Positions 1 to 41,788 of a stretch of 41,788 bases of DNA are shown in pieces. How positions within the stretch are numbered: the first letter of the stretch is position 1; each line of letters starts with the position of its first letter. The stretch covers positions 1 to 41,788 of the forward strand of contig JASHPL010000194.1 in the NCBI GenBank assembly GCA_030038125.1, written 5' to 3'. The stretch comes from Candidatus Sulfotelmatobacter sp. GTDB lineage: Bacteria > Acidobacteriota > Terriglobia > Terriglobales > Acidobacteriaceae. The position numbers and the translations under genes are program-made. A model generated the notes under the pieces. The model was not told where the DNA came from. It saw nothing but the letters and a program-made list of their open reading frames with translations, and ran no database searches.

Positions 1-17
1 AGTCGAGGAGAGAGACT

Positions 18-12821: not shown

Positions 12822-15800
12822 CTATTTCAGTCTCGCGTATTCCGCTTTGGCTTGCTTCAGGACGGGGATATTCGGGTCGGCATCTTTCCAGAGCGTCAGG
12901 AAATCCTTGTAAGCCGTGACAGCGCGCACCCGGGCGGCGTCGGCGTCGGCGCCCTGCGAGTTCTTCGCCTGCAGGGCGTTGGCCCGCGCCAGGCCCAGGC
13001 GCGCCAGGGCTCCGGTCCAGCAGTTCCAGACCACGCCGCTGTGATCGATGATCTTGCGAAATTCGGCCGACGCGGCGGCGCTTTCTCCCTCGGCAAGATA
13101 AGCCTCGCCACGAATGTAGGTGGGATACAGACACGAAACATTAGCCAGAAAGATTATCAGACCGTATTCGATCGGCAGCGTGACCTGTAGGTCGCGAATG
13201 GCCTCGGCCGGGTTCTTACGATTCAGTGCCAGTTGCGCGTGAATCGCGGGCAGCCAAAGCGACTGCATCTGCGTGTCGAGCGGGAAGGTCTTGTTAAGAT
13301 CGTCCGCCAGCGCTTCGGCCCGAGCGGCATCGTCGGACATGGCGAATGCCAACGCAGTTTCCGCCGAATTGCCCGAACTGGCGGGAGCAAGCTTCAGTCC
13401 GTCGGCCGCCAGTTGCCGCGCGGCTGCCGGTTCTCCGAATGCCGCTTCCCGCAGGGCAGAATTCTCCAACCAGGTCGATCCCGTTTCCTTGCTGTCGTCG
13501 CGAATGGCAGAATCGACGGCGCTTTTTGTCAGCTCTCGCGCTTTAGCGAGATGACCTGCATAGGCCTCGGTGTCAGACGCGAGCGAGAGCCCGTTGTTCT
13601 CTTCCGGCTTGCCTTCGAACCAATGCTGCTCTGCCGCCATACCGGAAGCGTCGCCGCGAAGAAACGCCAGTGCATATACCGTTTCATGAAGCTGGAAATC
13701 CAGAAGGTTTCGCGCCTCTGCCTGTTGAATGATCTGCTCCGCATCATCGAAACGCTCGAGGGCCAGCAGACTGATCACCAGATTGCCGTACGGGATGCTG
13801 CTGTCGGGTGTGAAGCCGAGACTCAGGCGATACGCTTCCGTCGCGTTCTCGTACTGACCCTGCTGGCTGTAGATGTTACCGATGCTGGTGTAGGCGGGGT
13901 CGCGAGAGTAGATCCGCGTGAGTTCCAGATCGGTCGCGAGCGCCTTATCCAGTTCGCCTGTGACCGTTCCGTAATAACTCATTTCGATGTACAACCTCTC
14001 GCGCTCTCCGGCTCGCTCGCGCAACTGGAAGGCTTTGCTGTAATACTCTCGTGCGCGTCCGATCTCACCGAGCCCATAGTAGTCGGCGCCGACGGAGCGA
14101 TACCCGATGGCAAAACCGGGATCGAGTTCGATGGCACGCTGATGGTAAGGCAGGGCGGCGGCTTCGCCTTTTTCGAGCAAAGCCTGCCGGCCGAGACTCA
14201 GGGCCTTCAGGGCGTCGAGTGACGACGTGGTGGCTTCCGACAGGGAAACGTCGAACTTCTGCACGGTGGTCAGCGACTCGCCCAACTTTTGGCGCAATCT
14301 CGACGCCGCCTGACCGAGCGCATCGACCACTCTCTGTTTCGACTCCGCGGTGGCGCTCTCCTGCGCCAACGTGTCGCCGTTTCTGCAATTCACGGCCGTG
14401 AGTCCGACGAGGTATTGATCGCCCGCAGCGGCGATCGATCCGCCAACGTAGGCCTTGCTGCCAGCGCGCTGGCAAATGTCGCGGGCAACGTCTGGTGTAA
14501 GCCTTGTCTGGCGCGGAAGGGTCATCAGCTTCAGCGTGCTCGCGACCTTTCCGTCAGAGACAACGCTCAAAAACGGCGACTGCCGCAAGGAAACACCAAG
14601 CGCCGTCTTCAGCGTGTCGTCGAACAGCGGGTCGCCCGTCGTGTTGGTGAAGTCAGCCAGGACGATCGTATCTTTGTCGGTCAGCCGCGTGTTTCGCCAG
14701 CGGTAATAAAGCGCGCCGGCTACGCCGAGGATCAAAAAGACCGCGCATAGCGAGAAGGCCATGATGCGCCGGCCGCGCGCCTTGGCGAAGGAGTGCCACG
14801 TGTCATCCTTGATCGCCTTCGCTACTTCCTCTGCGGTGGTGAAGCGTTTTTCTGGAAGCCTCTCGATGCAGCATGCAATGAGTTCGTTCCACTTTTCCTC
14901 GAGATCGGGAACGATGGTGCGCGGAGGCGGAGGGCTCTGCTGCAAGCGGCGTACGGCCATGGAAAGTGGAGTGGCCTCGTCGAACGGCAGTCTGCCGGTG
15001 ACCATTTCATAGAGAACGAGGCCCAGCGAATAGACATCGGACGCCGGAGTCAGAGTTTTACCTTCGACCTGCTCAGGCGACATATAGGCAGGCGTGCCCA
15101 TCTGTCCACCTGTGGTCAACTCGGCGCTACGGCGGACGTCTTCGCCGTGTTGAAGCGCGAGTCCAAAATCGGTAATCACAACGCGTGTCTTCTTCGTGCT
15201 GTGAATCAGAACGACGTTGGTAGGCTTAAAATCGCGGTGCAAGATTCCCATCTCGTGCGCTGCAGCCAACCCGTTGGCCATTTGCAATGCGATCGGCTCG
15301 GTTTCCTCGCAACTCATCTTATCCACGTGATCCAGATGCGCGGCCAGAGTCTCGCCACGAAGTAGCTCCATGCTGACCAGCGCGACGCTAGCATCAGCCG
15401 ACGTCGCGTGGCGAAACAGGTCAAAGATGCGGCAAATATTGGGATGCGTGACTTTCTTTGCGAGGTGGACTTCACGTTTGAACCGTTCCAGAGAATGAGG
15501 ATCGGAGAGAATCTCCGGCCGGATGGTCTTAAGCGCGACCTCTTCGTGAAGTTCAAGATCCTCCGCCTCATATACCTCGCCCATACCGCCGCGCGCCAGA
15601 AACCGTATGACCCGGAAACGCGAGGCGAGGATTTCCCCGGCAGAAAAAGTCGGCTGTTCCTGCTTCGTGCGGGTCGCGGCTGCCAGATGGGCTAATGGAT
15701 CGAAGGCAAAATCGGGACCTTCGGTGTGATGGGACAAAAGCCGTTCCACTTCACGAACAACCGTCTCTTCCGAACCGGCGCGGCGAAGAAACGAAGAGCG

Positions 15801-15875
15801 TTCGCTGGCAGGCTGCTCCAGGGCAGCCGCAAACAGCTCCTTCACCTCATTCCATTGTTCCGGAGTGAGAACCAT
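12822..15875 (-). CDS. Membrane Ser/Thr protein kinase with TolB/FlgO-like and TPR sensor region
   Basis: Acidobacterial-type Hanks kinase of 1017 aa. An N-terminal helical region (MVLTPEQWNEVKELF) leads into the kinase domain: GGMGEVYEAED glycine loop, VALKTI lysine, HRDFKPTN catalytic loop (F where L is usual), DFG in ITDFGLAL, and GTPAYMSPEQ. One transmembrane helix (MAFSLCAVFLILGVAGALYY) follows the kinase, then an extracytoplasmic region with a FlgO/TolB-N-like part (DTIVLADFTNTTGDPLFDDT) and many TPR units. The topology suggests signal input outside and phosphorylation inside. The start at 15875 gives the family's usual opening; an ATG at 15893 adds six residues. No partner sigma factor is adjacent, unlike kinase 2. 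Confidence 0.92.
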   Translation of the reverse strand: MVLTPEQWNEVKELFAAALEQPASERSSFLRRAGSEETVVREVERLLSHHTEGPDFAFDPLAHLAAATRTKQEQPTFSAGEILASRFRVIRFLARGGMGEVYEAEDLELHEEVALKTIRPEILSDPHSLERFKREVHLAKKVTHPNICRIFDLFRHATSADASVALVSMELLRGETLAAHLDHVDKMSCEETEPIALQMANGLAAAHEMGILHRDFKPTNVVLIHSTKKTRVVITDFGLALQHGEDVRRSAELTTGGQMGTPAYMSPEQVEGKTLTPASDVYSLGLVLYEMVTGRLPFDEATPLSMAVRRLQQSPPPPRTIVPDLEEKWNELIACCIERLPEKRFTTAEEVAKAIKDDTWHSFAKARGRRIMAFSLCAVFLILGVAGALYYRWRNTRLTDKDTIVLADFTNTTGDPLFDDTLKTALGVSLRQSPFLSVVSDGKVASTLKLMTLPRQTRLTPDVARDICQRAGSKAYVGGSIAAAGDQYLVGLTAVNCRNGDTLAQESATAESKQRVVDALGQAASRLRQKLGESLTTVQKFDVSLSEATTSSLDALKALSLGRQALLEKGEAAALPYHQRAIELDPGFAIGYRSVGADYYGLGEIGRAREYYSKAFQLRERAGERERLYIEMSYYGTVTGELDKALATDLELTRIYSRDPAYTSIGNIYSQQGQYENATEAYRLSLGFTPDSSIPYGNLVISLLALERFDDAEQIIQQAEARNLLDFQLHETVYALAFLRGDASGMAAEQHWFEGKPEENNGLSLASDTEAYAGHLAKARELTKSAVDSAIRDDSKETGSTWLENSALREAAFGEPAAARQLAADGLKLAPASSGNSAETALAFAMSDDAARAEALADDLNKTFPLDTQMQSLWLPAIHAQLALNRKNPAEAIRDLQVTLPIEYGLIIFLANVSCLYPTYIRGEAYLAEGESAAASAEFRKIIDHSGVVWNCWTGALARLGLARANALQAKNSQGADADAARVRAVTAYKDFLTLWKDADPNIPVLKQAKAEYARLK

Positions 15876-16132
15876 GGAAAGTCCGCGAATCATGTTAGGG
15901 ACGGATGGAAGTGGAAGTCAACGGCACGGCCGTGGTAGTCCGATGCCGGGCGGGCTCGTCCTCGGCCACGCTGTCGACCAGTGGGAACGCGAGCGTATGC
16001 GGTGATTTCGCAGCGGAACGGCCAACACTGTGACCCTATTTCGTTTTCCTTGTCGCGTTACCTAGTTGAAAGCTCGAATCACAGCCAGAGTGCCCTATTA
16101 GCGAAATCTGACAACACAAAGGAGAATCACAA

Positions 16133-27958: not shown

Positions 27959-30900
27959 TCACTCTGGTTGCAAGGCTTGCTTGGATTTACGGGCGATCAG
28001 TGCGAATCCGTGTGACTGGGAATCCGAGATCAGTTGACTGAGACGGATACGGCCGTTTCCTTGTTGGCCCGATTTGATTTCCATTACTCCCAGCCGCAGT
28101 CGCGATTCAAATTCGTAACCGACGTAGCCATATCGGCTGGCTTCAGAGCGAACCTTTTCGACGATTCTCAAGGCCTCCTTGAAATTTCCGCTCTGGCCTA
28201 GTATCGCCGCCTTCGCAAATTCTTCCTCATAACGCGAAGTCCGATCGGATCCCTGACGGCATAAGTCGGCCGCACGAGCGGCGGCGGATTGCGAGTCTGA
28301 AACCTTCCCTTGTGCCAGCAGTATAGTGCTGAGAATCGCCTCGGCCTCGCAACCAGCATCTGTTTCTTTTTCCTTTTCGAATTCGGCGGCTGCCCGCTGA
28401 GCCTGCTGGGTCGCTTCCGAGATGTTTCCTTCGTCGAGCAAGATTTGAGCCAGTTGTATTTGGGTATGGGCGAGATCGCTTTCGACGCCGAGTTCCTTTC
28501 GGAGCGCAATGCCCTGCTCGGATTTAGCGTGCGCCTCGGCCAGGTGGTCCTCGGTTCGCAAAAGTTCAGCCATTCCCCACAACACGAAGCCTTGCCCGCG
28601 TCGGTGACCGGTTTGCTGATGGATCGCCATCGCTTGGTCCAGTCGTGCGCCGGCCGCGGCAAGCTGTCCCTGCTCCATCAGCACATTGGCGAGATTGCTT
28701 AGCGTCGAAGCCTCACCTCTGCGATTGCCAGCCTTGCGAAAAGCCTCCAAAGACTGCTCTTGCATTCGAGTCGCACCGGGTAAGTCGCCCATGTCCTCCA
28801 CCACATTGGCGAGGTTGCCAAGATCGCCGCCAATGTCGCTGGCGCTGGCCCCCAGAGAACGATCAATATGCAGCGCCTGCTGGTAAGCACGGAGCGCTTC
28901 TTCCAAGTTGCCCTGCTCATAATAAATATTCCCAATGTCACTCAACATTCTCGCGACGATCAATTGCGCGCCAGTCTGACGAGCGATTCGCAATGCTTCC
29001 TCGTATGCCTTGCGCGCGCCAGCAAAATCGCCCTTGTCGTACAAGACAGTTCCGGTTCCACTCATCGCGATCGCGGCTTCCCGCAGGTTCCCGGCTTTCT
29101 CATACAAGTCGCGCACCTCGGCATACTCAGATTCCGCCTTTCCCAGTTCTCCAAGACGCTCCCAGGCCCAGGCCTCCTGCTGTTTCGCACTAGCCACAAT
29201 GAGGCGGCTGCCCTGCCGTGAGGCCAGATCAACAGCCTGCGCAGCTACCCGTTGGGCGTGCCGGAAGTCGGCCAGAGACGCGCTGGCCTCGGATTCAACC
29301 ACATCAATGCGCGGATCCAAGCTCCCGGGACCGGAAATGTTTCGCAACTGCGCCACAGTGGCCAGTGCGTCCTTCCCCTGCCCAGCTTCTGTTTCCGTGG
29401 AAGCGAGACGCAGTCCGCTTTCGATATCGTCCGGGTAGAACCTGAGGAGCGTGCGATAGATTTCGATCGCCGCGGGATAATCGTTTTGCAGTTCGCGATA
29501 ATGGCCTTCGATGAGCAACTGATCGCGCCGGGGCAGGTTCTGGGAGAGTTCAAACGCTTTGCTTGCTTCCTGCTTCGCTTTTTCGTCATAGCCCAAGGCC
29601 CAGAGACTGCGGGCGAGGAAGGAATGAGAGAGCGCGTGGTTAGGATCTGCGGCGATCGCTTTTTCGAACAGGTCACGCGCCGTCTTGGCATCGTAGGCGC
29701 GGAATTTGGTCAGCCCCTCGGAATAGAAGCGAACGGCGTCCATCGTACTCGGCAAAGAAAAGCCGAGGCGTTGAATCTCCTGGGTCGATACCACACCTAT
29801 ACCCAGCTGCGCGCGGAGTTTGTCACTGACTCGCGAGACCAGGTTGGCCATCTCGGGCTCCGTGCCACTCTCGGAAACCGCTGCAATCGTCTCGCCCCCG
29901 ATGGCGTCCTGCACCCGCAAATCAATCCGCAACGGTCCCGCTGTGTCCTTTCCCATGCCTAGGTAAGAGCCGACGACCACGTCGTCTGCTCCCAGGTTCC
30001 CGCTGATTCTGGAAAGCGTTGTAGGTGAGTAGCTATCGGTGACCGGCAACGACAAATCGAGCTTCATGCGGGCGACGTTTTCTCCGGAGATCACGCGCAA
30101 ATTGTCGCCCGAAGCAAGTTCCGTCCCGAGCATTTCGGAGATTGCAGTCGAGACCCATTCCTGTTCCGGACTTCCCGAGAGATTTCGAAACCCCAGCACC
30201 GCAATCGAACGTCGGGCTTTCGCATGAACGGCCTCCGGTGGCGCACTCGGCCGGTGCAAAGCGCGCTCGACAAGTGCTCCACCGACAGCCAGTAGAGCGA
30301 AGACACCGGCCAGCAGCCACGCCCGTCCTTTTACTGCTGACAGTAGTCCGGGACGGGCCCCCAAGGGCACTGCCGCCGGACGAACCACCATCACCCTTCG
30401 GGTGTCAGTGTTATGGCGCAGATCCTCGAGATCCGCTCGCATGTCCGCTGCTGAGCGGTAGCGCAATTCACGATCTTTCTCGAGAGACTTCTTGATGATA
30501 GTTTCAAGTTCCGGCGGAATTTCCGGATTGATCGCGCGAGGTGAGACAGGCTGCCGGTTGAGAACCGACTCCAGCGTCAGCGCAACGTTCTTCCCCGAGA
30601 AGGGACGCTGTCCGGCAGCCATCTCGTAAAGCATTACGCCCAGAGAAAACAGGTCGGTTCGACCATCGAGTTCCTCTCCCCGAATCTGCTCCGGCGACAT
30701 GTACTGACTCGTCCCGGGAATTACGCCAAAGGAAGTGAGCACATCATCGGCGGTCGGGGCCGGATCGTGGCTTCCACTACTCAGCTTGGCCAAGCCGAAA
30801 TCCAGCACCTTGCTTGATCCCCGCTGAGTCAGAAAGATGTTGGCTGGTTTGATGTCGCGATGAATAACCCCCGCGGCGTGTGCGGCATCCAGCGCATCAG

Positions 30901-31486
30901 CTGTTTCTATCCCCCACTGCAGGGCCTCGCGCAGCGCCGGGCGCCCGGAATCAAGGCGATGCCGGAGTGTCTGCCCTTCGAGCAACTCCATCACGATCAC
31001 CGGACTGCCTTCGTAGTCCTCTACTTCATACAGTGTGCAAATGTGAGGGTGATTAAGGGAAGAAATGGCGCGCGCCTCTTGCTGGAAACGTAGCAGCGCT
31101 TTACCGCGGTCGCCCTGCGTCTCCAGAACGAATTTGAGCGCCACGTGACGGCCGATGCGAAGATCTTCCGCCTCATAAACCCGCCCCATTCCCCCGGTGC
31201 CAAGGTGTCGTAAGACGCGATAGTGGGCGATGGTTTTGCCCGGCAGCGAGTCGCTCCATCGGAGATCCTGCGCCAAGCCTGTGTTGCCGACGGTTGCCGC
31301 ACCCAGGATTGGCTGCTCGAGGAAGGTTCCCAACTGGTTGTGTGAGCTTAACAGCGAGCGAACTTCCTGTTCCAACGCGACATCACCGTCGCAGGCTTGC
31401 CGCAGGAACGCGTCTAGCTGATTGGACGGCAGGCGCAGCGCTGACTGCAGCAGGTCATCGACTCGTTTCCAACGGTCCACATCCAT
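27959..31486 (-). CDS. Membrane Ser/Thr protein kinase with long TPR array, coupled to an ECF-type sigma factor
   Basis: An 1175-aa Hanks kinase. Kinase hallmarks: [49 protein letters not shown] transmembrane helix ([17 protein letters not shown]) follows, then a TolB/FlgO-like part ([19 protein letters not shown]) and about ten TPR units, many with A-Y-Q-A-L spacing typical of Kinesin-light-chain-like TPR. ATG 31486 shares its A with the TGA of the sigma-factor gene (TGATG), which sets the start and implies translational coupling; the frame runs to 31537 inside that gene. The pair probably forms a signalling unit in which the kinase and the sigma factor are made in fixed ratio (inference). 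Confidence 0.93.
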
Positions 31487-32106
31487 CACTGATCCCGCTT
31501 CATTTCGCGATACAGCCAGGCACGGGCCGTACTCCAATCGCGAGCGATGGTGGCCGTCGAAAGCTTCAGAAGCTGGGCCGTCTCCTCCGAGCTGAGCCCA
31601 CCAAAAAAACGTAGTTCCACGACTTGCGCCTTGCGCGGATCAATCTGCGCAAGTGCCTTCAGGGCATCGTCGAGAGCCACGACATCGATGCTCTTGCGTC
31701 TGGTCAGCAGGGTCGCTTCCTCGAGCGGAAGCGTGCCATCGCCCCCTCCGCGCTTTCCGGCGCGGTGCCGCCGGGCGTAATCAACAAGGATCTGGCGCAT
31801 GAGCTGTGCAGCGATGGCGAAGAAGTGCGTACGGTTTTCCCATTCTGGGGTATTCAGTCCGACCAACCTCAGATAGGCCTCGTGCACCAATGCAGCGCTT
31901 TGCAGGGTGTGATCCGCACGTTCGTGACGCAGCTGAAAGTGAGCCAGACGTTGGAGCTCCTTGTAAACAATCGGCAGCAGTGAATCCAACGCCTTGCGGT
32001 CTCCATCACGCCAGACCCGCAACAGCTGTGTGATCTCGGCTGTAGGCTTTTCCCCCAAAGAGCACACCCAAAACGCGATCCCGCTTTGGTTAGGTAGGCT
32101 AGCCAT
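31486..32106 (-). CDS. ECF-like RNA polymerase sigma factor (Sigma70_ECF, PF07638 type)
   Basis: A 206-aa sigma factor. The region-2 part reads [20 protein letters not shown] and [17 protein letters not shown], followed by [20 protein letters not shown], all diagnostic of this acidobacterial/planctomycete family; region 4 is [19 protein letters not shown] with [21 protein letters not shown] 32106 is chosen; a TTG at 32124 adds six residues. No anti-sigma factor is adjacent; instead the gene is fused in expression to a Ser/Thr kinase by a one-base stop-start overlap, as often seen for this sigma group. Confidence 0.93.
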
Positions 32107-32470
32107 GCATGCTTCAAAAGTCAACTGTTAACGCCTGAACTCTCGCTGCTTAGCGCAACCACCCAAGTCTGCCAAAGCTTAGTAAACGAATGATGCGTTT
32201 TCCTGGCGCGGTTTACAGACAAGAGACCGAAGACGATTCGACCCACGGTTGAAGATTCCGCAAGAAGCTTACGAAACCCATGCTGTTCTTTCGGTCTGCA
32301 CGAACTATGGAAGCCGATTCGCAGGGACGGGTCATGAAGAATAATGAAGAATAATGAAGAATAACGATCTCGGCTAGTGAATTATTGTCACGAATCCTCC
32401 CGGAACTGCTCGACATCTAGCCAAGCCATTTTGCGGCAATTGGGAAGCCGACCGAGAGGCTCCGCCGTTC
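32107..32470. other. Gene-free stretch upstream of the sigma factor
   Basis: About 360 bases that should contain the promoter of the sigma factor-kinase operon on the minus strand. The only distinct feature is the 10-base tandem repeat at 32334-32363. No coding sequence is apparent. Confidence 0.55.
32334..32363 (+). repeat. Tandem repeat ATGAAGAATA x3
   Basis: Three perfect consecutive copies of a 10-base unit, close to one helical turn each, between the NIPSNAP-like gene and the sigma-factor gene. Such a short array can change length by slippage. Confidence 0.85.
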
Positions 32471-32779
32471 TCAGTATTCGAGCACTTCGTAAAACTCGAT
32501 CCAGCTCTGTTGGAACATGGGGTGTTGTTGCTTAGCCAACTCCGTGTGCTCCGTACTGTTGTCGATTCGTTTCAGCGCTTCTTCCGCGGCGCAAAGAGAC
32601 TCGAACCGGCATTCCCACACGATGGTATTCGCTACCTCGCGGCCAGAAATCGGCACGAGGCGTTCTCCTCGCGGAAGAATCCCACGGTGTTCCAATTCGG
32701 CAAATTTCTTCTCAAGTGCGTGGAACTCCTGTTTGTGGGAAGGATGATATTGCTGAATAAGTCGCATAATGATGGCCAT
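32471..32779 (-). CDS. NIPSNAP-like dimeric alpha/beta-barrel protein
   Basis: A 102-aa cytoplasmic protein. The AAGGAGGAATAT ribosome site fixes the ATG at 32779. The pattern of an alpha helix rich in E/K (HKQEFHALEKKFAELEHRGI), a strand (IVWECRFESLCAAEEALKRI) and a C-terminal WIEFYEVLEY matches NIPSNAP/antibiotic-monooxygenase-like ferredoxin folds. Function unknown. It lies 57 bases after the amino-acid permease gene on the same strand and may be cotranscribed with it. Confidence 0.8.
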   Translation of the reverse strand: MAIIMRLIQQYHPSHKQEFHALEKKFAELEHRGILPRGERLVPISGREVANTIVWECRFESLCAAEEALKRIDNSTEHTELAKQQHPMFQQSWIEFYEVLEY

Positions 32780-32836: not shown

Positions 32837-34213
32837 CTAATCTACTGCCCCTGCCGTGTGGTTACCTTCGTCTGGGATGTCGAATGACACCAACTCTGCT
32901 TTGAAACCGTGGGTCCTGAATGCACCGTAGGCGATGCCGAGAGCCATCCAGATTACTCCTGCAATCTTGGCCGGACGGCTGAGGCTGAGCCACAGCAACA
33001 AGCACACCAGAAAACCGAGTACCGGAACGAGAAAGTTGCTCAGTTGTTTCTGCGACTCTCGCAAGAAATATCGAGTGAACGACGCGGCGTTTACACCCAT
33101 GAATGCCAATAATGCTCCGAAATTCAGCAGTTCAGCCGCGCGTTCAAAAGTCAGGAACGTTGTTCCGATTAATGCGAATATGCCCACGAACAGAACATTG
33201 TTCCGGGGGATGCGCCGTTTTGGTTCGATCGCGCCAAAAAACGATTTCGGAATAGCATTCCCTCTACCCATGCCGTAGAGCAATCTCGCCGCTCCCAACT
33301 GCGATCCCATCCCGGAACCAACGGTCGCCACTAACAAAGTGACATTGATGAGACCAAACAGCCACGCGCCACCGGCACGGCCCGCAACTGACACGTAGGC
33401 CGTGTCGACATCCGGAAACGGCTGTGTACCCGGCCAGACTAATTGGGCCGCATAAACTTCCACCGATGCCAGAGCGCCGGTAATAAGGCAAACCAGAACC
33501 GTCGCGAGAAGGATGTTCCGCTTGGGGTTTTCTGCCTCCTCCGACAGCGTGGAGATGCCGTCGAATCCGATATAAGTCAAGACTGCCAGCGATGTCCCAC
33601 CCAATACTGCAGCAGGAGAAAATGTCTTCGGGTCATAGAAGGGACGCGTGAAGAAAGCCAGACCATCATGCGGGGTCTTAAATATGTAGCGCGCGGCGGC
33701 GCAAAGAAAAATGAGGATGACAACTCCCATGCCCGCCGCAAGTGTGTCATTGATCCGGGACGAGGTGCGGATGCCGAACAGGTTCAGACCCGTAAACAGC
33801 GAGATAAAAAACACGACGAGGACTGCGTAGGGAATCTCAGGGAAGAAATCGAGCGCAAACTTGCTGCATAAGATAGTACACACGATCGGGTTGAGCATGT
33901 AGTCCATGGCCATGCTCCATCCGGTCACATAGCCGAGTGCCGGGTGAATCTCAGAGCCGACGTAGGTAAAAGCTGAGCCGGCACTGGGATAGGCACGAGC
34001 CATGCGCCCGTAGCTGACCGCGGTAAACAGCATTGCAATCATAGCGATCAAAACTGTGGTGACTGCGTGGCCGTGCGCCCGTTGAGTCATGACACCGTAA
34101 ACCGGCATCGGCGCCGTCGGCTGAATGACGATCATCCCATAGAGAATCAAGTCCCACAGGCCGAGGACGCGCCTCAGCTTCGGACCTTCAGCGGTGGTGG
34201 GTGAGGAAACCAT
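32837..34213 (-). CDS. APC-superfamily amino-acid/polyamine permease
   Basis: Inner-membrane transporter of 458 aa with about 12 helices. The first helix region GLWDLILYGMIVIQPTAPMP matches the unwound helix 1 of APC transporters, and later SYGRMARAYPSAGSAFTYVG and YIGFDGISTLSEEAENPKRN are family hallmarks (the latter in helix 6 and the following loop). Substrate unknown; amino-acid or amine uptake or exchange is expected. ATG 34213 has only a weak ribosome site. Confidence 0.92.
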   Translation of the reverse strand: MVSSPTTAEGPKLRRVLGLWDLILYGMIVIQPTAPMPVYGVMTQRAHGHAVTTVLIAMIAMLFTAVSYGRMARAYPSAGSAFTYVGSEIHPALGYVTGWSMAMDYMLNPIVCTILCSKFALDFFPEIPYAVLVVFFISLFTGLNLFGIRTSSRINDTLAAGMGVVILIFLCAAARYIFKTPHDGLAFFTRPFYDPKTFSPAAVLGGTSLAVLTYIGFDGISTLSEEAENPKRNILLATVLVCLITGALASVEVYAAQLVWPGTQPFPDVDTAYVSVAGRAGGAWLFGLINVTLLVATVGSGMGSQLGAARLLYGMGRGNAIPKSFFGAIEPKRRIPRNNVLFVGIFALIGTTFLTFERAAELLNFGALLAFMGVNAASFTRYFLRESQKQLSNFLVPVLGFLVCLLLWLSLSRPAKIAGVIWMALGIAYGAFRTHGFKAELVSFDIPDEGNHTAGAVD

Positions 34214-34655
34214 TCGGCCGTCTATCGTGGCTAAGGGGCACTGCGTACTCTCTGGTTTAACGTTTTGCTATGCCACCAATCCGTGCATGAAAGTGCGAAA
34301 GTCGTACACATGATTTTTTGGGGTAACGGACGGCTTGGTCAGCCGAGGCATTCGTCCATTTGAAAAACAAAGAAATTACGTAAAGAGACGTTTCGCGCGT
34401 TGTCCAATTTCGGCGAAAGGTGCACACCAGCATAGTCGCAGGAAGTGCTTCGAGCAAGACCGTAAACCAGCTCAGACAAGCCACTCTGCATACTTTTGCT
34501 TGACGCAGATAGTTAATCGGCGTATTAGCTTCGAATTGGTTCAACGATTCACGAAACGAGTTGTTGGTTGGATTCAACTCCGCCGATTCCGACGCGATGT
34601 AAGTCTGAGTTGAAGAGAAGCGCCAGAGTAATTCCTGAGAAATCTGGGAGCTACC
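34214..34655. other. Divergent intergenic region, permease / amidohydrolase
   Basis: About 440 bases between the start of the permease gene (minus) and the amidohydrolase (plus). Both promoters should be here. A long minus-strand open frame over 34257-34868 is not protein-like. I see no clear palindrome or RNA. Confidence 0.5.
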
Positions 34656-35789
34656 GTGAAGAATTTGAGCCTCCGCCATGCAATCTTGCTTACGTGGAGT
34701 GTGCTGTTTACGTGCTGTTTGTTGTTCCATTCGTCGACTGCCACACCGCAGACGCAAGAACGCGCCCACGTCGACGAGGCGTTGCAGGCATTTGCCAATA
34801 TTCGACCCATCGATGTTCACGTGCACGTGTTCAAAACCGACGCTGATTTTCAGGCCATGCTGCAACATCTGAACTTGAAATTGATGAACATCCTCGTCGT
34901 TGATGATACCTTGTCGTACCGCAGGCAGTTGGAGCCACAGATCACGGATGCCCTAGCCTTGGTTCGCTCCAGTAACGGCCATGTCGCTTTTTGCACGACC
35001 TTCGATCCCTACAAATTCAACCAGCCGACCTTCGATGCCGACAGCATTAAGCAACTGGATCGCGACTTTGCCCATGGTGCAGTCGCGGTAAAAATCTGGA
35101 AAAACGTGGGCATGGAAATCAAGAATTCCGACGGCAAGTTCATCATGCCTGACGATCCGAAGTTCGAACCTATCTACAAAGACATTGCTCGTCACCATAA
35201 GACTCTTATGACGCACTTGGCTGAGCCTGACGTGGCATGGGGACCTCCTGACTCCTCAGATCCTTCCTGGTCCTACTATCAGGAGAATCCGCAATGGTTC
35301 CTCTACAACAAACCAGGGGTTCCATCGAAGCAACAGATCCTGCAGGCGCGTGATCACGTGTTGGCCGAAAATCCCAACCTCCGCATGGTAGGAGTCCATT
35401 TGGGAAGTATGGAGAAAGATCTGGACAACATTGCGGCTCACCTTGATCGCTACCCAAATTTTGCTATCGATACTGCCGCCCGCATGGCATACCTTATGAT
35501 CGCGCCACCAGAAAAGGTACGTGCGTTTCTGATCAAGTATCAGGATCGCGTACTTTATGGCACTGATCTCGACTTGATCGCCGCTGCAAACGTGGGAGAG
35601 ACACTAACCGAATGGAATTCAACCTATGCCCGCGATTGGACGTTCTTGGCGACCGATGAAATCGTTGAGTACAAGGGAAAAAAGATTCGCGGATTGGCGT
35701 TACCCGAGCCGGTTTTGCAGAAGATCTTTCACGACAACGCACTGCATTGGATCCCGGACCTCGCATTGCCTGCCCGGAGTCTGCGATGA
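34656..35789 (+). CDS. Exported amidohydrolase (Amidohydrolase_2-like)
   Basis: A 377-aa metal-dependent hydrolase with an N-terminal signal peptide (about 1-31, LTWSVLFTCCLLFHSSTA). The metal motif PIDVHVHVF (HxH) starts the barrel; VAVKIWKNVG offers a bridging lysine, THLAEP and VGVHLGSM further histidines, and LYGTDLD the terminal aspartate. This matches the Amidohydrolase_2 group (lactonases, decarboxylases). GTG 34656 follows CTGGGAG. It is first in a row with aldolase, kinase and isomerase genes, and might cleave a lactone or ester that feeds them (inference). Being exported separates it from typical cytosolic members. Confidence 0.85.
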   Translation: MKNLSLRHAILLTWSVLFTCCLLFHSSTATPQTQERAHVDEALQAFANIRPIDVHVHVFKTDADFQAMLQHLNLKLMNILVVDDTLSYRRQLEPQITDALALVRSSNGHVAFCTTFDPYKFNQPTFDADSIKQLDRDFAHGAVAVKIWKNVGMEIKNSDGKFIMPDDPKFEPIYKDIARHHKTLMTHLAEPDVAWGPPDSSDPSWSYYQENPQWFLYNKPGVPSKQQILQARDHVLAENPNLRMVGVHLGSMEKDLDNIAAHLDRYPNFAIDTAARMAYLMIAPPEKVRAFLIKYQDRVLYGTDLDLIAAANVGETLTEWNSTYARDWTFLATDEIVEYKGKKIRGLALPEPVLQKIFHDNALHWIPDLALPARSLR

Positions 35790-35910
35790 TGCCAAAGCTC
35801 CTCTGTCACAACTCAGGGAACTCTGAAGACGACTTACGAGATCGCATACGCGCGCAGATTCGGGGACCGATGGTGCTTCCGATTTCATATGTAGAAAGTT
35901 TGAGGCCAGC

Positions 35911-36723
35911 TTGAGCGACTCCGGTAAGAAGATTCGCTTGCGCCGCGTCCTGGGCAATCCCGGGCGCGGGGCTTTAGTTGTTGCTTTCGATCACGCATTA
36001 GTGCTGGGTCCAATTCCTGGCACTGACGATCCCCTTGGCAAAATCCGACATTTTGCTGAAGCGGGCGTTGATGCTGTTCTCCTGAACCTGGGCCTGCTTC
36101 GGCAATATGCCCAATCGCCTCTGGACGTGTGCCTCCCGGCTTTCATCGCCCGCATTGATTGGACCACGGTCTGGGCTGTGTTGCAGAGTGGAGCAGGTGA
36201 ATTGCAAAGCAGGCTGTTGGCGCGCCCTGAAGAAGCGCTCAGGCACGGCGCGGATGCGGTCATTACGTACATGGTCATCGGAACCGGCGATGCCGACTTT
36301 GAAGCCAAAGAAATCGCTCGCACAGCGGATGTAGCGCGCGAATGCGAGCAAGTTGGCATTCCCCTGCTCGTCGAATCTCTCGCGCGAGGCAAACCGGTCG
36401 ACAATCCAAGCGATCCAAAGTGGCTCAAGTTGCACACTCGTATGGCGGTCGAACTCGGAGCGGACGCAATCAAAACTGACTACAGTGGCAACTCAGTATC
36501 CATGCGGTCTGTGACGGAAGCATGCCCGATTCCGATTCTTGTTCTGGGTGGCAGCCGGCAGGGTTCCGATGAAGACGCACTCGCAGTCGTTCGCGGCGCT
36601 GCGCAAGCCGGAGCCGCAGGCGTCTTCTTCGGCCGCAATGTTTTCCAGTCTCAGGATATGGATTCTTTTCTTCGCCAGGCCCGCAGCATTTTGGATACTG
36701 GGGCTCCGTCCCCGGCTTCATAG
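35911..36723 (+). CDS. Class I aldolase of the DhnA/LsrF family
   Basis: A 270-aa TIM-barrel aldolase. AFDHALVLGP opens the barrel; the Schiff-base lysine is K188 in DAIKTDYSG. The C-terminal part, CPIPILVLGG and GAAGVFFGRNVFQS, follows the phosphate-binding pattern shared with LsrF and archaeal-type class I FBP aldolase. LsrF acts on processed phospho-AI-2; relatives cleave ketose phosphates. The TTG start at 35911 is uncertain because no clear ribosome site is seen. The kinase gene follows after 15 bases and the isomerase after that, suggesting it splits a ketose phosphate made by them. Confidence 0.88.
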   Translation: MSDSGKKIRLRRVLGNPGRGALVVAFDHALVLGPIPGTDDPLGKIRHFAEAGVDAVLLNLGLLRQYAQSPLDVCLPAFIARIDWTTVWAVLQSGAGELQSRLLARPEEALRHGADAVITYMVIGTGDADFEAKEIARTADVARECEQVGIPLLVESLARGKPVDNPSDPKWLKLHTRMAVELGADAIKTDYSGNSVSMRSVTEACPIPILVLGGSRQGSDEDALAVVRGAAQAGAAGVFFGRNVFQSQDMDSFLRQARSILDTGAPSPAS

Positions 36724-36738
36724 CAGCGCAAGACATGC

Positions 36739-38220
36739 ATGAGTCTACTGGTTGTCGATATCGGATCAAGTGCCTGTAAAGCGGTGGCATTTGCCGTCGA
36801 GGGAGAAATTCTCGCGCAGCATGCGTCTGCCTACAGCGCCGCTGTTTCCGCGCCCTCTCACGCCGAAATGAATCCGTGCCGCTTCTGGGAAGCGGTGTGT
36901 ACTTGCACACGTTCAGTCACCAGGAACCTTTCCGATCCAGTGCAGGCATTATGTCTCAGCTCGCATGGCGAAACCTTTGTCCCCATCAATGAACGGAACC
37001 AAGCGATCGGACGGGCAATCCTCAACCAGGACAGCCGTGCGATTCACGAAACTGACTGGCTTGAACAGGAACTGGGACGACACCACTTGTTCGAAATCAC
37101 CGGACTTGTCGCACACCCCATGTACCCGATCCCCAAAATCCTGTGGCTGCGGCGACAACAGCCCGATATTTTCTCTTCTGCCGCAAAGTTCGTTACCGTA
37201 ATCGGCTACGTCTTGCTTAAGCTCGGATTGCCGCCCTATGTGGATTACTCGCTAGCTTCCCGATATCTGGCCTTCGACGTTCGCAAACGCTGCTGGTCGG
37301 GAGAAATTCTCGAATCGGCTGAATTGTCGGATGACCGTCTCCCCGAACCTGTTCCCGCAGGCACGATGATAGGAAAAGTTGGTGCATCGGCGGCGAGTCA
37401 ACTCGGAGTACCTTCCGGAACCGCGATGGTGCTCGGCGGCCACGATCAGCCCTGCGGTGCTTTGGGATTGGGAGTTACACAGCCCGGCCAGGTGGCCGAC
37501 TCGATGGGAACCTACGAATGCGTTCTGGTGGCTTCCGATGAGCCCATACTGAGTGATGCCGCTTTCGCCGCTTCCCTCAACTCCTATTGCCATGTGGTTG
37601 CCGATAAGTTCGTCACAATCGCCTATTTCCCATCCGGAATTATGGTGAGGTGGCTTCACGATCTGCTGTCCAACAACCTTGACCAATCAGAATCGGAACG
37701 ATATGCGCTTCTGGAAGCCCACGCGCCACCCGGCCCGAGTGGCCTATGCATCACGCCCAATTTGATTGGCACCTGCAACCCAGATTTCAATCCGAATGCG
37801 CGCGGAATCATCTATGGTCTCAGTCCCGGCAGCGGCCCTGCGCACATCTACAAAGGGATCCTGGAGGGCCTGGCTTGTGAGTTTGCACAAGCCACGTGGT
37901 TGCTGGCGAGCGTTGTAGGGCAATTTTCAGACCTGCATGTTACTGGCGGTGGAACTCGTTCCGCCATGGGCTTGCGTTTGCGCGCTGCCCTGGCAGCAAA
38001 ATCTCTGCATGTGATGCGATGTCGGGAAGCAGTGTGCCTGGGTGGAGCAATCTTAGCCGGCGTTGCCACCGGAGAATATAGAAGCATTGATGAGGGCGTG
38101 AGGCAGTTGGTTCGCGAGAATGCGGTTGTTGCACCGGAGGCACAAATCGCTTCAGCCTACGCGGACCAGATGAAGCAGTATCAGTGGCTGCGGTCGTTAA
38201 ATGCGCCCGCCGCCAACTGA
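36739..38220 (+). CDS. FGGY-family carbohydrate kinase
   Basis: A 493-aa sugar kinase. The N-terminal ATPase fold begins MSLLVVDIGSSACKAVAF; the central NQDSRA and SHGETFVPIN segments and the catalytic GGHDQPCGALG (D236) match FGGY kinases, and VTGGGTRSAMGLRLRAALA with CLGGAILAGVATG closes the C-terminal ATPase domain. Full length for the family. FGGY kinases phosphorylate ketoses and polyols (xylulose, rhamnulose, fuculose, glycerol) and, as LsrK, AI-2. Which one applies is not visible. It lies between aldolase and isomerase genes in what appears to be one operon. Confidence 0.92.
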   Translation: MSLLVVDIGSSACKAVAFAVEGEILAQHASAYSAAVSAPSHAEMNPCRFWEAVCTCTRSVTRNLSDPVQALCLSSHGETFVPINERNQAIGRAILNQDSRAIHETDWLEQELGRHHLFEITGLVAHPMYPIPKILWLRRQQPDIFSSAAKFVTVIGYVLLKLGLPPYVDYSLASRYLAFDVRKRCWSGEILESAELSDDRLPEPVPAGTMIGKVGASAASQLGVPSGTAMVLGGHDQPCGALGLGVTQPGQVADSMGTYECVLVASDEPILSDAAFAASLNSYCHVVADKFVTIAYFPSGIMVRWLHDLLSNNLDQSESERYALLEAHAPPGPSGLCITPNLIGTCNPDFNPNARGIIYGLSPGSGPAHIYKGILEGLACEFAQATWLLASVVGQFSDLHVTGGGTRSAMGLRLRAALAAKSLHVMRCREAVCLGGAILAGVATGEYRSIDEGVRQLVRENAVVAPEAQIASAYADQMKQYQWLRSLNAPAAN

Positions 38221-38250
38221 ATTTGGGAGTTGCATTACTTAGGAGGAATC

Positions 38251-39633
38251 GTGATTCAACCTACAGTCGGATTCATCGTCTACGGCGTTCATAAGGACGG
38301 CCTCAAAGACCCGATGGGCACACCTTTTATCGATGACGCCATCGTCAAGCGCGCGAAAAAAGCGCTTACACAGGCGGGCCTGAAAATAATCGAGCACAAC
38401 GTAGTCCTTGCCACCAAAGAGGAAGCTCGTGCGGCCATGAGGAAGATGAAATCGAATGATGACGTCGACATGGTGATACTGTTTTCCGGCACCTGGGTGT
38501 GGGCGGCACACCTGGTCGGCGCAATTCGTGACTTCGCGGCCAGCGGGAAGGCGGTGCTGCTGTGGACTCATCCCGGCTCGCAAGGCTGGAGGCCTGTTGG
38601 CGGCCTGGTTATGCATGGCGGCCTCCTGGAAATCGGCGTAGCGCACAAGTTTGTTTACGGCACAGCCGAAGATCAAGATAGCCTCGATAAAATCGTGAGC
38701 TATGCGCGGGCGTCTCACCTCAAGAATTTTCTGAACATGTCCACAATGGGCACGTTTGGCGGGCGAGGAATGGGACAGACCTGCGGCGTTGCCGACCCAT
38801 CGCAATGGATGCGCATGTTTGGCATTGATATCGATTCCCGCGATACCACCGAGCTGATTCGGACTGCCGAAAAAATCACTCCGCGAGAGCTAGGCAATCT
38901 TCAGCCCCGGATGAAACGACTGTTTGGCGCCGCGCCCGAAAAGAGCCTGGTCAATGAGCGATCCATGCGTCTGTATCTTGCACTGAGGAAAATTGTCGAA
39001 AGGGAAAAGTTCGACTTCTACACAATTCAATCTTTCCCTGGGTTGGGGGACAACTACTCGGCCACTTGCTTCGCTCAGAGCATGATGCTGGAGGATGCAC
39101 ATGGCACCTCAACTCTGGGCGATTTCAACACAGCGCTGACAGTTCTGCTACTCACGAAACTGAGTAAGGAACGTGTGTATTACGGTGATCTTCAGCACAT
39201 CGACAAGCAGGGCAATGAGATCAAAATTATCGGCGACGGCGCCTGCCCGCCATCCTTAGCTGGCAAGCTGGGGCCAGCCGGATTCTCCGAACATGGTATC
39301 CCCACCGAAGGCGAAGCCGGCGGACTTTCGGTCAAGCTGATCTGCAAGGTGGGCGAGGGAGTTCTTGCGCGGCTCGGGCGGGTCAATGGAGAGTTCCAGA
39401 TGGTAATTACCCGAGCCAGGATCTTCGAGCCGCCTGCCAACAAGGTTTCTAAGCGCCTCGAAGAATGCGGTATTCCGTTTTGGCCGCACGGTTTTGTTAC
39501 CGTTCACTGCGATGTGGAGATCCTGCTCCAGAACTGGACAAACGAATACGCTTGCTTGGGCTACGGCGCCGACCTTTACCCGGCACTCACGGATTTCTGC
39601 CAGCTCACAGGAATCAAGGCGATCCTGCCATGA
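38251..39633 (+). CDS. L-fucose/L-arabinose isomerase-like protein
   Basis: A 460-aa cytoplasmic protein resembling the FucI/AraA isomerase superfamily. GTG 38251 is set by a perfect AGGAGG at 38241-38246; the frame is open 21 bases further. Visible segments: PTVGFIVYGV at the start, VDMVILFSGTWVWAAHLVGA, STMGTFGGRGMGQTCGVADP, and EDAHGTSTLGDFNTALTVLL, a conserved stretch in these isomerases. Members convert aldoses to ketoses with a divalent metal; the exact sugar is not visible. Its place after kinase and aldolase makes an isomerase-kinase-aldolase route likely. Confidence 0.85.
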   Translation: MIQPTVGFIVYGVHKDGLKDPMGTPFIDDAIVKRAKKALTQAGLKIIEHNVVLATKEEARAAMRKMKSNDDVDMVILFSGTWVWAAHLVGAIRDFAASGKAVLLWTHPGSQGWRPVGGLVMHGGLLEIGVAHKFVYGTAEDQDSLDKIVSYARASHLKNFLNMSTMGTFGGRGMGQTCGVADPSQWMRMFGIDIDSRDTTELIRTAEKITPRELGNLQPRMKRLFGAAPEKSLVNERSMRLYLALRKIVEREKFDFYTIQSFPGLGDNYSATCFAQSMMLEDAHGTSTLGDFNTALTVLLLTKLSKERVYYGDLQHIDKQGNEIKIIGDGACPPSLAGKLGPAGFSEHGIPTEGEAGGLSVKLICKVGEGVLARLGRVNGEFQMVITRARIFEPPANKVSKRLEECGIPFWPHGFVTVHCDVEILLQNWTNEYACLGYGADLYPALTDFCQLTGIKAILP

Positions 39634-39999: not shown

Positions 40000-41788
40000 A
40001 TGAAACGCAACCTTGCTGTACTCCTGCTCTGCGGTCTCGGAGTCACTCTGCCGGCATGGGCGCAGGTGGATACTGCGACTGTGACGGGTACGGTCCGGGA
40101 TTCAACCGGAGCGGTCGTTGCGAACGTCACCGTTACCGCTACCGAAATGAACACTGGGATCAAGACGACTGTCAAAACCGGGAATGACGGAAATTATGTG
40201 ATCACGCCGCTGAAGATCGGAACCTATTCGGTCTCCGCGGAAGGGTCCGGGTTTCGAACCGAGACCCGGCAGAACATCGTTCTCAATGTTCAGCAAAACC
40301 AGCGCCTTGATTTTCAGCTCCATGTGGGTTCGGTGGCTCAGACCGCTGAAGTTACCAGCGAAGCTCCGCTGCTGGAGACAGAATCGGCTTCTCTGGGCGA
40401 CGTAGTGTCGGCGCAGCAGGTTGAGGAATTGCCCCTCAACGGCCGGCGTTATACCGATCTTGCCGAGTTGACTTCGGGCGTTGCCAAGATCACCGAAGGT
40501 CCGGTCAACGGAGGCAGCACACCGACCAACGGAAATGCGGGCGGAAGCTTCGCTGTCAACGGAACTCGTGGCGATCAGAACAACTTTATTCTGGATGGGA
40601 TCGATAACAACTCCAACGACAATGGCGATATAGCGATTCTTAGCAGTGTGGATGCCATCGCCGAATTCAAGATTGAAACCTCGAATTACTCTCCCGAATT
40701 TGGCCGTAGTGGGGGCGCGGTGATCAACGCCAGCACCAAGTCTGGCACGAACAAATTCCACGGAGAGCTCTGGGAATTTTTCCGCAACGATGCCCTGGAC
40801 GCTCGCTTGTATTTTGAAGCACCAAACTCGCCTAAGGCGCTTTACCAGCAGAATCAGTTTGGAGGAACGCTCGGCGGGCCGATCAAGAAAGATAAGGCAT
40901 TTTTCTTCGTGGATTACGAGGGAACACGAATCCATCTGAATCAAGTCGACATTGTCAGCGTGCCTACGGTTGCAGGCTCTGGAACTTCCGACGAGCGAAT
41001 AGGAGATTTCAGCGGCATTTTAGGTTCGCAATCCACACTTTGCGGCGCTAGTGGAACGTCGCCTTGTGTTGATGCGCTGGGCCGCCCGGTTTTTACCAAC
41101 GAAATTTACGATCCGACTCTTCTGACGAATGCAAACGGGGTGCAATACCGTAACGGCTTTGGATTTGATCCCACAACAGGCCTACCCATCCCCGGACAAG
41201 CCAACATCATCCCCACGAATCGCCTAAGCACAGTCGGAATGAATTACGCGGCTTTATATCCCGCGCCCAATCAACCGGGAACCGCCAACAACTACCTGAC
41301 GAACGCCCCCGGAACCCAGCGCGTGGATCAGATGGATGCGCGGGTCGACGAAAATCTCACCCACAACATCCAGCTCTTCGAACGATTCTCACTGGTCGAG
41401 CAGTCTAATTTTCAAGCTCCCGTATTTTCAGGAATCGCTGACGGGGGAAACTACAACACCGGCAATCAGCCCTTAGACAGTCAAGGTTTCGTGCTGGGCC
41501 TGACCGATTCCATCAATCCGAACACCGTCGACGCGCTGCGCATCGGATTCAACCGGGTCCATTACATCGCCAATTCGCCGTCTTATGGACAGAAGTATCC
41601 GCCGACGGGATTCCAGGTGCCCGGGGTTCCCAATGATCCTTTAATCAATGGGCTGACTTGGTTTGCACCGAGCGCGTATGCCGGGCTGGGCGAACCCTTG
41701 TACACGCCGACGCGCAGCACGAGCCAGGATATTCAGATCAATGACACCCTCAGCCTTGTGCGCGGAAAACATCTGCTGAAAGTGGGGC
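40000..41788 (+). CDS. TonB-dependent receptor with carboxypeptidase-regulatory-like N-terminus (5' part)
   Basis: Outer-membrane transporter, running off the window end (596 codons visible, no stop). ATG 40000 follows GGAGG at 39991-39995. A signal peptide ends in PAWA before QVDTA. Then comes a CarboxypepD_reg-like beta-sandwich (about 25-105: TVTGTVRDSTGAVVANVTVT, GNYVITPLKIGTYSVSAEG), a plug domain (LPLNGRRYTDLAELTSGV, FILDGIDNNSND, SGGAVINASTKSGTNKFHGE) and the start of the barrel (GGPIKKDKAFFFVDYEG). This is the large Oar-like receptor type abundant in Acidobacteria, commonly tied to glycan or oligosaccharide uptake. It follows the sugar-catabolic genes on the same strand after a 366-base gap. 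Confidence 0.9.
   Translation, partial: MKRNLAVLLLCGLGVTLPAWAQVDTATVTGTVRDSTGAVVANVTVTATEMNTGIKTTVKTGNDGNYVITPLKIGTYSVSAEGSGFRTETRQNIVLNVQQNQRLDFQLHVGSVAQTAEVTSEAPLLETESASLGDVVSAQQVEELPLNGRRYTDLAELTSGVAKITEGPVNGGSTPTNGNAGGSFAVNGTRGDQNNFILDGIDNNSNDNGDIAILSSVDAIAEFKIETSNYSPEFGRSGGAVINASTKSGTNKFHGELWEFFRNDALDARLYFEAPNSPKALYQQNQFGGTLGGPIKKDKAFFFVDYEGTRIHLNQVDIVSVPTVAGSGTSDERIGDFSGILGSQSTLCGASGTSPCVDALGRPVFTNEIYDPTLLTNANGVQYRNGFGFDPTTGLPIPGQANIIPTNRLSTVGMNYAALYPAPNQPGTANNYLTNAPGTQRVDQMDARVDENLTHNIQLFERFSLVEQSNFQAPVFSGIADGGNYNTGNQPLDSQGFVLGLTDSINPNTVDALRIGFNRVHYIANSPSYGQKYPPTGFQVPGVPNDPLINGLTWFAPSAYAGLGEPLYTPTRSTSQDIQINDTLSLVRGKHLLKVG

Follow-up and report, generated by a model that had tools for sequence, protein, structure and literature searches.

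The L-fucose and L-rhamnose routes follow a three-step logic of isomerase, FGGY kinase, and aldolase, and their aldolases are of the FucA/RhaD type. The clusters for 5-deoxyribose salvage use enzyme families different from those treated here. These three-gene clusters of kinase, isomerase, and aldolase, which are otherwise comparable in content, are reported to have been noticed by genomics (PMC6079011). We analyzed a stretch of 41,788 nucleotides from Candidatus Sulfotelmatobacter sp. (Acidobacteriota), referred to below as the window, which is one entire contig (JASHPL010000194.1; G000:C375 in our numbering) of a 6.02-Mb genome in 494 contigs. It contains four consecutive genes for an amidohydrolase (AMH), an aldolase (ALD), a kinase (KIN), and a protein with the fold of the L-arabinose and L-fucose isomerases AraA and FucI (ISO). 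The set shares its isomerase, FGGY kinase, and aldolase logic with the L-fucose and L-rhamnose routes; unlike them, it uses a DhnA aldolase of class I, replaced in other phyla by an F_bP_aldolase of class II, and it adds an amidohydrolase. It is a variant of the isomerase-kinase-aldolase kind, and the new point, as read from alignments, is that the conserved "isomerase" of the set is without residues common to isomerases of its fold. The four genes are as follows.

34656 to 35789, plus strand: AMH, amidohydrolase (PF04909) of 377 amino acids, GTG start (open reading frame [ORF] list, Pfam)
35911 to 36723, plus strand: ALD, DhnA-type class I aldolase (PF01791) of 270 amino acids, TTG start (ORF list, Pfam)
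36739 to 38220, plus strand: KIN, FGGY carbohydrate kinase of 493 amino acids, ATG start (ORF list, Pfam)
38251 to 39633, plus strand: ISO, AraA/FucI-fold protein of 460 amino acids, GTG start (structure model, alignment)

A preliminary description of this DNA had reported four plus-strand genes with gaps of 121, 15, and 30 bases, followed by a TonB receptor gene, and the ORF list confirmed this arrangement, provided that ISO starts at the GTG at 38251. From its first TTG the ISO ORF would span 38230 to 39633 (467 amino acids); the motif AGGAGG lies just 5' of the GTG, and the resulting length of 460 amino acids recurs among ISO orthologue ORFs. Residue numbers for ISO count from the TTG at 38230.

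The four-gene set is real and more than a chance arrangement, because its members co-occur within the genus and are conserved across phyla, and the preliminary description is supported in that the isomerase-fold protein, FGGY kinase, class I aldolase, and amidohydrolase form a conserved unit. ISO was present in 15 of 37 sampled genomes of the genus, the window's own included. KIN orthologues (at least 50% identity) were found in all 15 ISO-positive genomes and in none of the 22 ISO-negative ones (Fisher p ~1e-10, in a test that ignores kinship), ALD (at least 57% identity) in 14/15 versus 1/22, and AMH (at least 66% identity) in 11/15 versus 2/22; some of the absences fall in incomplete or fragmented genomes. 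The wider comparison used the best 80 of 155 confirmed ISO loci, which together with the window make 81 (43 Acidobacteria-type and 38 other). Across these best 80 loci, ISO was 67 to 84% identical to that of the window, and the record titles name 14 phyla; one locus (L036) carries a title of Proteobacteria that we doubt, and we counted it under Acidobacteriota, whose genes its own resemble. Neighbors were counted within 2.5 kb on the ISO strand, at bit-score floors of 60 (45 for a small protein described below) and with short contigs included. For AMH and KIN in other phyla, a Bacteroidota query was used together with the window protein, the clustering of ORFs took only the last 15.8 kb of the window, and many neighbor gene names were read by eye. 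By this count, KIN accompanied ISO in 42/43 Acidobacteria-type and 16/38 other loci, and an AMH-type gene did so in 12/43 and 15/38. In five loci where ISO is without a nearby KIN or class II aldolase gene (L058, L059, L068, L074, and L078), it adjoins genes that by eye resemble the uroporphyrinogen decarboxylase family.

The fold of ISO emerged from structure rather than from sequence families. Pfam returned nothing at an E value of 0.001; at 0.01, PF02952 matched with 18.3 bits, below its cut-off, and this family matched 39/50 ISO members. The ISO model (mean pLDDT, or predicted local distance difference test, of 87; Foldseek template-modeling score 0.81) aligned to the L-arabinose isomerase 4r1p with a Z score of 34.3 and a root mean square deviation of 2.9 over 442 residues at ~14% identity, and to L-fucose isomerase with a Z score of 31. 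Judged by this model, it is secure that ISO has the complete AraA/FucI isomerase fold. The active site, in contrast, differs from that of the family, which the preliminary description had no means of seeing. A MAFFT alignment combined ISO with relatives from the phylum and with the AraA and FucI proteins of Escherichia coli, and hhalign compared it with profiles of AraA, FucI, and two relatives (L101 and L016); at 14% identity, each pairing of an ISO residue with AraA or FucI is inferred. The position that matters most is the following.

39115 to 39117, plus strand: codon of ISO Leu296, at the position of the catalytic and metal-binding Glu of AraA and FucI relatives (MAFFT, hhalign)

In the MAFFT alignment, Leu296 replaced this Glu (AraA E306 and FucI E337, which acts as both base and metal ligand) in 92/92 ISO sequences, and Tyr440 replaced the C-terminal ligand His (AraA H450, FucI H528) in 92/92, next to an invariant preceding Glu439. 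The middle ligand His pairs with Gly335 or Asp336, uncertain by one residue, and Asp320 matches the acidic ligand Asp that is kept (FucI D361). These 92 rows were counted after dropping L094, whose match crossed a stop lying upstream, and two incomplete rows, L014 and L015. Among the 25 relatives counted, which omit L130 (length filter) and six of the other 31 (L104, L107, L111, L114, L120, and L128, taken in a wrong frame), the Glu was kept in 25/25 and the last His in 24/25, the other being a gap. In hhalign, the profiles of AraA, L101, and L016 again paired the Glu with Leu296, as did a weak match with FucI only (4.9% probability); the pairing of the His with Tyr440 was reproduced with AraA and FucI, and the L101 and L016 profile alignments left the C-terminal end unsettled. 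ISO therefore resembles the AraA/FucI superfamily in its complete fold, in weak profile matches, and in one acidic ligand position, and differs from it at the Glu, the middle His, and the C-terminal His.

Given that the Glu and the His are replaced, the classical metal mechanism cannot run unchanged in ISO, and isomerase activity, on the evidence of these alignments, cannot be assumed from the fold. The site was possibly rebuilt from Asp298, Asp320, Asp336, Glu439, and Tyr440, and ISO may still work as an isomerase in which carboxylates (Asp320, Asp336, and Glu439) and Tyr440 substitute for the Glu and His. Conservation of ISO was very strong, with a mean column identity of 75% over 50 sequences, which argues for a function. 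The same conservation, and the uniform loss of the two residues alongside a retained Asp320, would also suit a protein that is no aldose-ketose isomerase at all, in which the AraA/FucI fold was reused for epimerization, dehydration, or hydrolysis to prepare the substrate of KIN. We regard this alternative as rather unlikely, in that the partners of ISO are those of an isomerase-kinase-aldolase route and the acidic Asp298, Asp320, Asp336, and Glu439 could make a substitute metal site. A broader proposal, which we offer tentatively and place short of probable, is that ISO represents a new class of enzymes built on the AraA/FucI fold, with either a different reaction or the same one carried out through a carboxylate/Tyr metal site, and that it heads a carbohydrate pathway that is found across ~14 phyla and linked with a PF04909 enzyme dedicated to it. 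The open-licence PMC literature, with its narrow coverage, yielded no paper on the four-gene set or on an AraA/FucI-fold family without the Glu and His, and a plasmid search with ISO gave one weak match of 22%.

The family that ISO matched best in NCBIfam was NF048012, sulfoquinovose isomerase, which was also matched in 50/50 ISO members. This points to a route in which ISO would be a distant SftI/SqvD, KIN would make sulfofructose 1-phosphate, and ALD would act like YihT. Sulfoquinovosidases include members of glycoside hydrolase family 31 (GH31), and one Melibiase-type neighbor of the cassette (L034:3948-6251) passed the GH31 cut-off (31 versus 23.5 bits; 51 for Melibiase). The sulfo-Embden-Meyerhof-Parnas route also has the isomerase, kinase, and aldolase logic of the set. 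Among the known sulfoquinovose routes (PMC9594981, PMC11968277), the aldolase YihT belongs to class I and to PF01791, and SqiA belongs to class II (PMC9594981), a swap of the same kind as that seen in our set; the kinase YihV, however, is PfkB-type (PMC9594981), unlike the FGGY enzyme KIN. The match of ISO to NF048012 was only 60.2 bits against a cut-off of 700, some 640 bits short, and its active site is altered, whereas the nearest SftI-like proteins of the phylum (L101 to L103, 168 to 174 bits) keep both the Glu and the His. None of 297 genomes of the phylum passed the NF048012 cut-off, and no sulfoglycolysis gene was recognized among neighbors that were read by eye and in ten profile scans only. 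We therefore consider this route very improbable, and sulfoquinovose is unlikely as the substrate.

The kinase and the aldolase, in contrast to ISO, have kept their catalytic residues. KIN matched FGGY_N with 161 bits and FGGY_C with 86.5 bits in Pfam; in NCBIfam it came nearest to xylulokinase models, below the cut-off (TIGR01312, 256 bits against 380), and the catalytic Asp of the GHD motif was kept in the 12 cassette kinases aligned. ALD matched PF01791 with 107.6 bits. In NCBIfam it matched the ADH-synthase model NF005556/PRK07226 with 196 bits, archaeal class I fructose-bisphosphate aldolase with 120 bits, and the model NF006081 for LsrF (3-hydroxy-5-phosphonooxypentane-2,4-dione thiolase) with 113.8 bits (cut-off 297), all below the cut-offs, and its best PDB match was MJ0400 (2qjg, 144 bits), followed at a distance by LsrF (68 bits). 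A close characterized homologue of ISO or ALD was sought in PDB, Pfam, and NCBIfam only, and no equivalog cut-off was reached there, MJ0400 being the nearest to ALD. Lys188, the Schiff-base Lys, was present in E. coli FbaB and in 17/17 aligned ALD rows, which comprise the window and 16 of the 23 others, and the GR motif of the phosphate site was kept as well. ALD thus has the PF01791 domain, the Lys, and the GR motif in common with the DhnA-type class I aldolases FbaB, MJ0400 ADH synthase, and LsrF, and differs in that it reaches no equivalog cut-off. The earlier label of an LsrF-type aldolase did not hold up, given that ALD is no nearer to LsrF than to the other DhnA-type enzymes.

The preliminary description had also singled out the class I aldolase as noteworthy, and in this it was well founded, since a class II enzyme occurs in the same set in several other phyla. 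A class II aldolase gene lay within 2.5 kb of ISO in 8/38 non-Acidobacteria-type loci, including Planctomycetota, Bacteroidota, Calditrichota, and Bacillota; the one that was scanned belongs to PF01116, and ten such ORFs aligned with GatY retained the GatY His motifs. That an unrelated enzyme of class II can occupy this position suggests that ALD is a genuine aldolase of ketose phosphates. The combination of an FGGY kinase with a DhnA-type enzyme is also that of autoinducer-2 (AI-2) processing, in which ALD would be the analogue of LsrF and a 102-amino-acid protein found with a subset of the loci (c65) would be like LsrG, itself a small isomerase. We find such an Lsr-like role scarcely credible. 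KIN scored 163 bits against the LsrK cut-off of 528, a shortfall like that of ALD against LsrF, a class II enzyme stands in for the aldolase in other phyla, and c65 was absent from 10/15 ISO-positive genomes of the genus. To our knowledge, the Lsr system has no AraA/FucI-fold protein.

AMH matched PF04909 with 46.5 bits (cut-off 26.4), and H55, H57, K146, K149, H187, H248, and D304 were invariant in 24 aligned members, in an HxH, H, H, D ligand pattern. Its model (mean pLDDT 92) is a TIM barrel with a Z score of 21 to 3irs and ~19 to decarboxylases; the fold matches at Z 18 to 21 comprised uncharacterized barrels, aromatic decarboxylases, LigJ, LigI, and ACMSD, and neither a single-sequence nor a profile search of the PDB found a sequence relative. 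The N-terminus carries a hydrophobic leader, as judged by eye, suggesting that AMH is probably exported. In the alignment of 24 rows, from which four of the 15 other-phylum AMH genes counted above (L057, L064, L075, and L095) are missing, a leader was seen by eye in 12 Acidobacteria rows and L088 and in none of 11 rows of other phyla, which are 22 to 29% identical to the window AMH. If AMH has one function throughout, this distribution would place it at the start of the route, acting outside the cell in some bacteria and inside it in others. The preliminary description had the operon headed by the amidohydrolase and fed by a lactone or ester that this enzyme hydrolyzes outside the cell. AMH does come first in the window, but this order is local: of the 20 Acidobacteria-type loci showing an AMH (window included), 14 have it downstream of ISO and on the ISO strand. 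For the lactone or ester we found nothing in support beyond the fold family.

From the observed gene set and its co-occurrence, the fold of ISO, the intact residues of ALD, KIN, and AMH, and the loss of the canonical residues of ISO, we infer the reactions, their order, and the site of phosphorylation. We lean, by a small balance of probability, toward the four genes being the central part of a conserved pathway of sugar catabolism. In this route, AMH would act ahead of ISO, outside the cytoplasm in Acidobacteria and within the cell in other phyla; ISO, through its rearranged active site, would convert an aldose or aldose precursor to a ketose; KIN would phosphorylate the ketose, most likely at C1; and ALD, or the class II enzyme in several other phyla, would cleave the ketose phosphate to dihydroxyacetone phosphate and an aldehyde. 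An aldose substrate would fit the mutarotase-like genes that adjoin ISO in 19/43 Acidobacteria-type and 12/38 other loci; these comprise DUF4432 genes, a second group whose DUF4432 match stays below the cut-off, and a third that was named by eye. Several observations weigh against this proposal. The fold and the partners of ISO do not establish ketose formation, because ISO is without the Glu and His that its counted relatives keep, and no conserved gene for use of the aldehyde product was recognized among the neighbors. ALD lay within 2.5 kb of ISO in only 15/43 Acidobacteria-type loci (32/43 anywhere in the locus), and 10/81 loci have ISO without any searched partner, some of them on short contigs. 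Two genomes of the genus, G006 and G033, carry AMH without a detected ISO, and G006, an assembly of ~900 contigs, also carries ALD. The KIN and AMH proteins of other phyla are only ~30% identical to those of the window, so that orthology is uncertain there. The Calditrichota loci L088 and L093 hold a class II aldolase plus a DhnA-type protein of 26 to 28% identity, and the swap between class I and class II is therefore not clean. No mutarotase-like gene lies on the window contig, and the best candidate of the genome, located on a different contig, matches only in part, at 40%.

The substrate sugar cannot be named, as the preliminary description had already stated. A Melibiase-type (GH36-like) protein group occurred in 18/81 loci, and its closest orthologues (at least 65% identity) were found in 5/10 ISO-positive versus 1/13 ISO-negative genomes sampled from the genus; the lone ISO-negative carrier, G006, has ALD on the same contig. 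A general Melibiase search was uninformative, with a match in 31/37 genomes of the genus. We take the linkage of the closest orthologues as a weak pointer to a galacto-configured sugar. In a side reaction, D-galactose is converted to D-tagatose by AraA, and the set might serve a standard sugar, such as D-galactose or another galacto-configured aldose, L-fucose, or L-rhamnose, by means of non-orthologous enzymes. We judge this unlikely, given that the Melibiase-type group is matched only in part, at 47%, in the window genome, that ordinary galactose use would need no new cassette, and that alpha-L-fucosidase (PF01120) was unlinked to ISO (6/10 ISO-positive versus 7/13 ISO-negative genomes). L-fucose in particular was weighed and put low, since the alpha-L-fucosidase search gave no signal.

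The genes that flank the four-gene set in the window are as follows.

32471 to 32779, minus strand: c65, protein of 102 amino acids (no Pfam or NCBIfam match)
32837 to 34213, minus strand: gene of an APC-type amino acid permease, in divergent orientation to the four-gene set (PF00324, PF13520)
34318 to 34446, minus strand: decayed remnant of a NagB-like gene (60 to 66% identity over ~40 residues, one internal stop)
40000 to 41788, plus strand: gene of a TonB-type outer-membrane receptor, truncated where the contig ends (PF25183, 260.6 bits; PF13620)

The divergent permease and c65 belong to a related sub-module, which likewise lay beyond what the preliminary description could see. A relative of the permease occurred in 11/43 Acidobacteria-type loci (window included) and lay within 2.5 kb of ISO in two. 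c65 was found in 5/15 ISO-positive and 0/22 ISO-negative genomes of the genus, and its relatives adjoin the cassette in L088 and L094 but lie at a greater distance from it in L071, L029, and L069. An intact NagB-like gene lies near the cassette in some relatives of the window, and in the genus such a gene (at least 75% identity) was present in 4/5 c65-positive genomes, the fifth being the window genome with its decayed piece. NagB-like, PfkB, and c65 genes occur together in L088, L094, and L071 (~7 kb from ISO), and NagB-like and PfkB genes occur without c65 in L075 and five Acidobacteria loci. The NagB-like/PfkB-like pair shares cassette loci L031, L033, L034, L037, L040, L071, L075, L088, and L094, which belong to Acidobacteriota, Armatimonadota, Spirochaetota, Calditrichota, and one record titled KSB1. 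This recurrence suggests that an amino-sugar step may be part of the use of the same substrate.

The TonB-type receptor ORF begins 366 bases beyond the ISO stop codon. Promoter-like and terminator-like sites in the window were no more frequent than in shuffled sequence and are therefore uninformative on operon structure, and an Rfam scan of the window found no family at the gathering score. Elsewhere in the window, positions 1 to 4479 hold genes of a sugar-type ATP-binding cassette importer (an ATPase, a permease, and a 679-amino-acid ORF that fuses a permease with a periplasmic binding domain), and an 894-amino-acid ORF at 5054 to 7738 unites a rotamase domain, FG-GAP repeats, and an UnbV/ASPIC domain. 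Large Ser/Thr-kinase genes lie on the minus strand at 12822 to 15893 (with TPR repeats, by Pfam) and at 27959 to 31537 (by eye), the second of which adjoins an extracytoplasmic function (ECF) sigma factor gene at 31486 to 32124.

Annotation of ISO from its fold and weak domain matches would tend toward an L-fucose or L-arabinose isomerase in a standard pathway, and the residues found here indicate that such an annotation may be wrong. If the substrate were identified, a carbon source used by many uncultured bacteria would be accounted for, and it would become clear either how the metal site of an isomerase can be rebuilt or how the fold gained new chemistry. The presence of class I and class II aldolases inside one gene set constitutes a second natural experiment.

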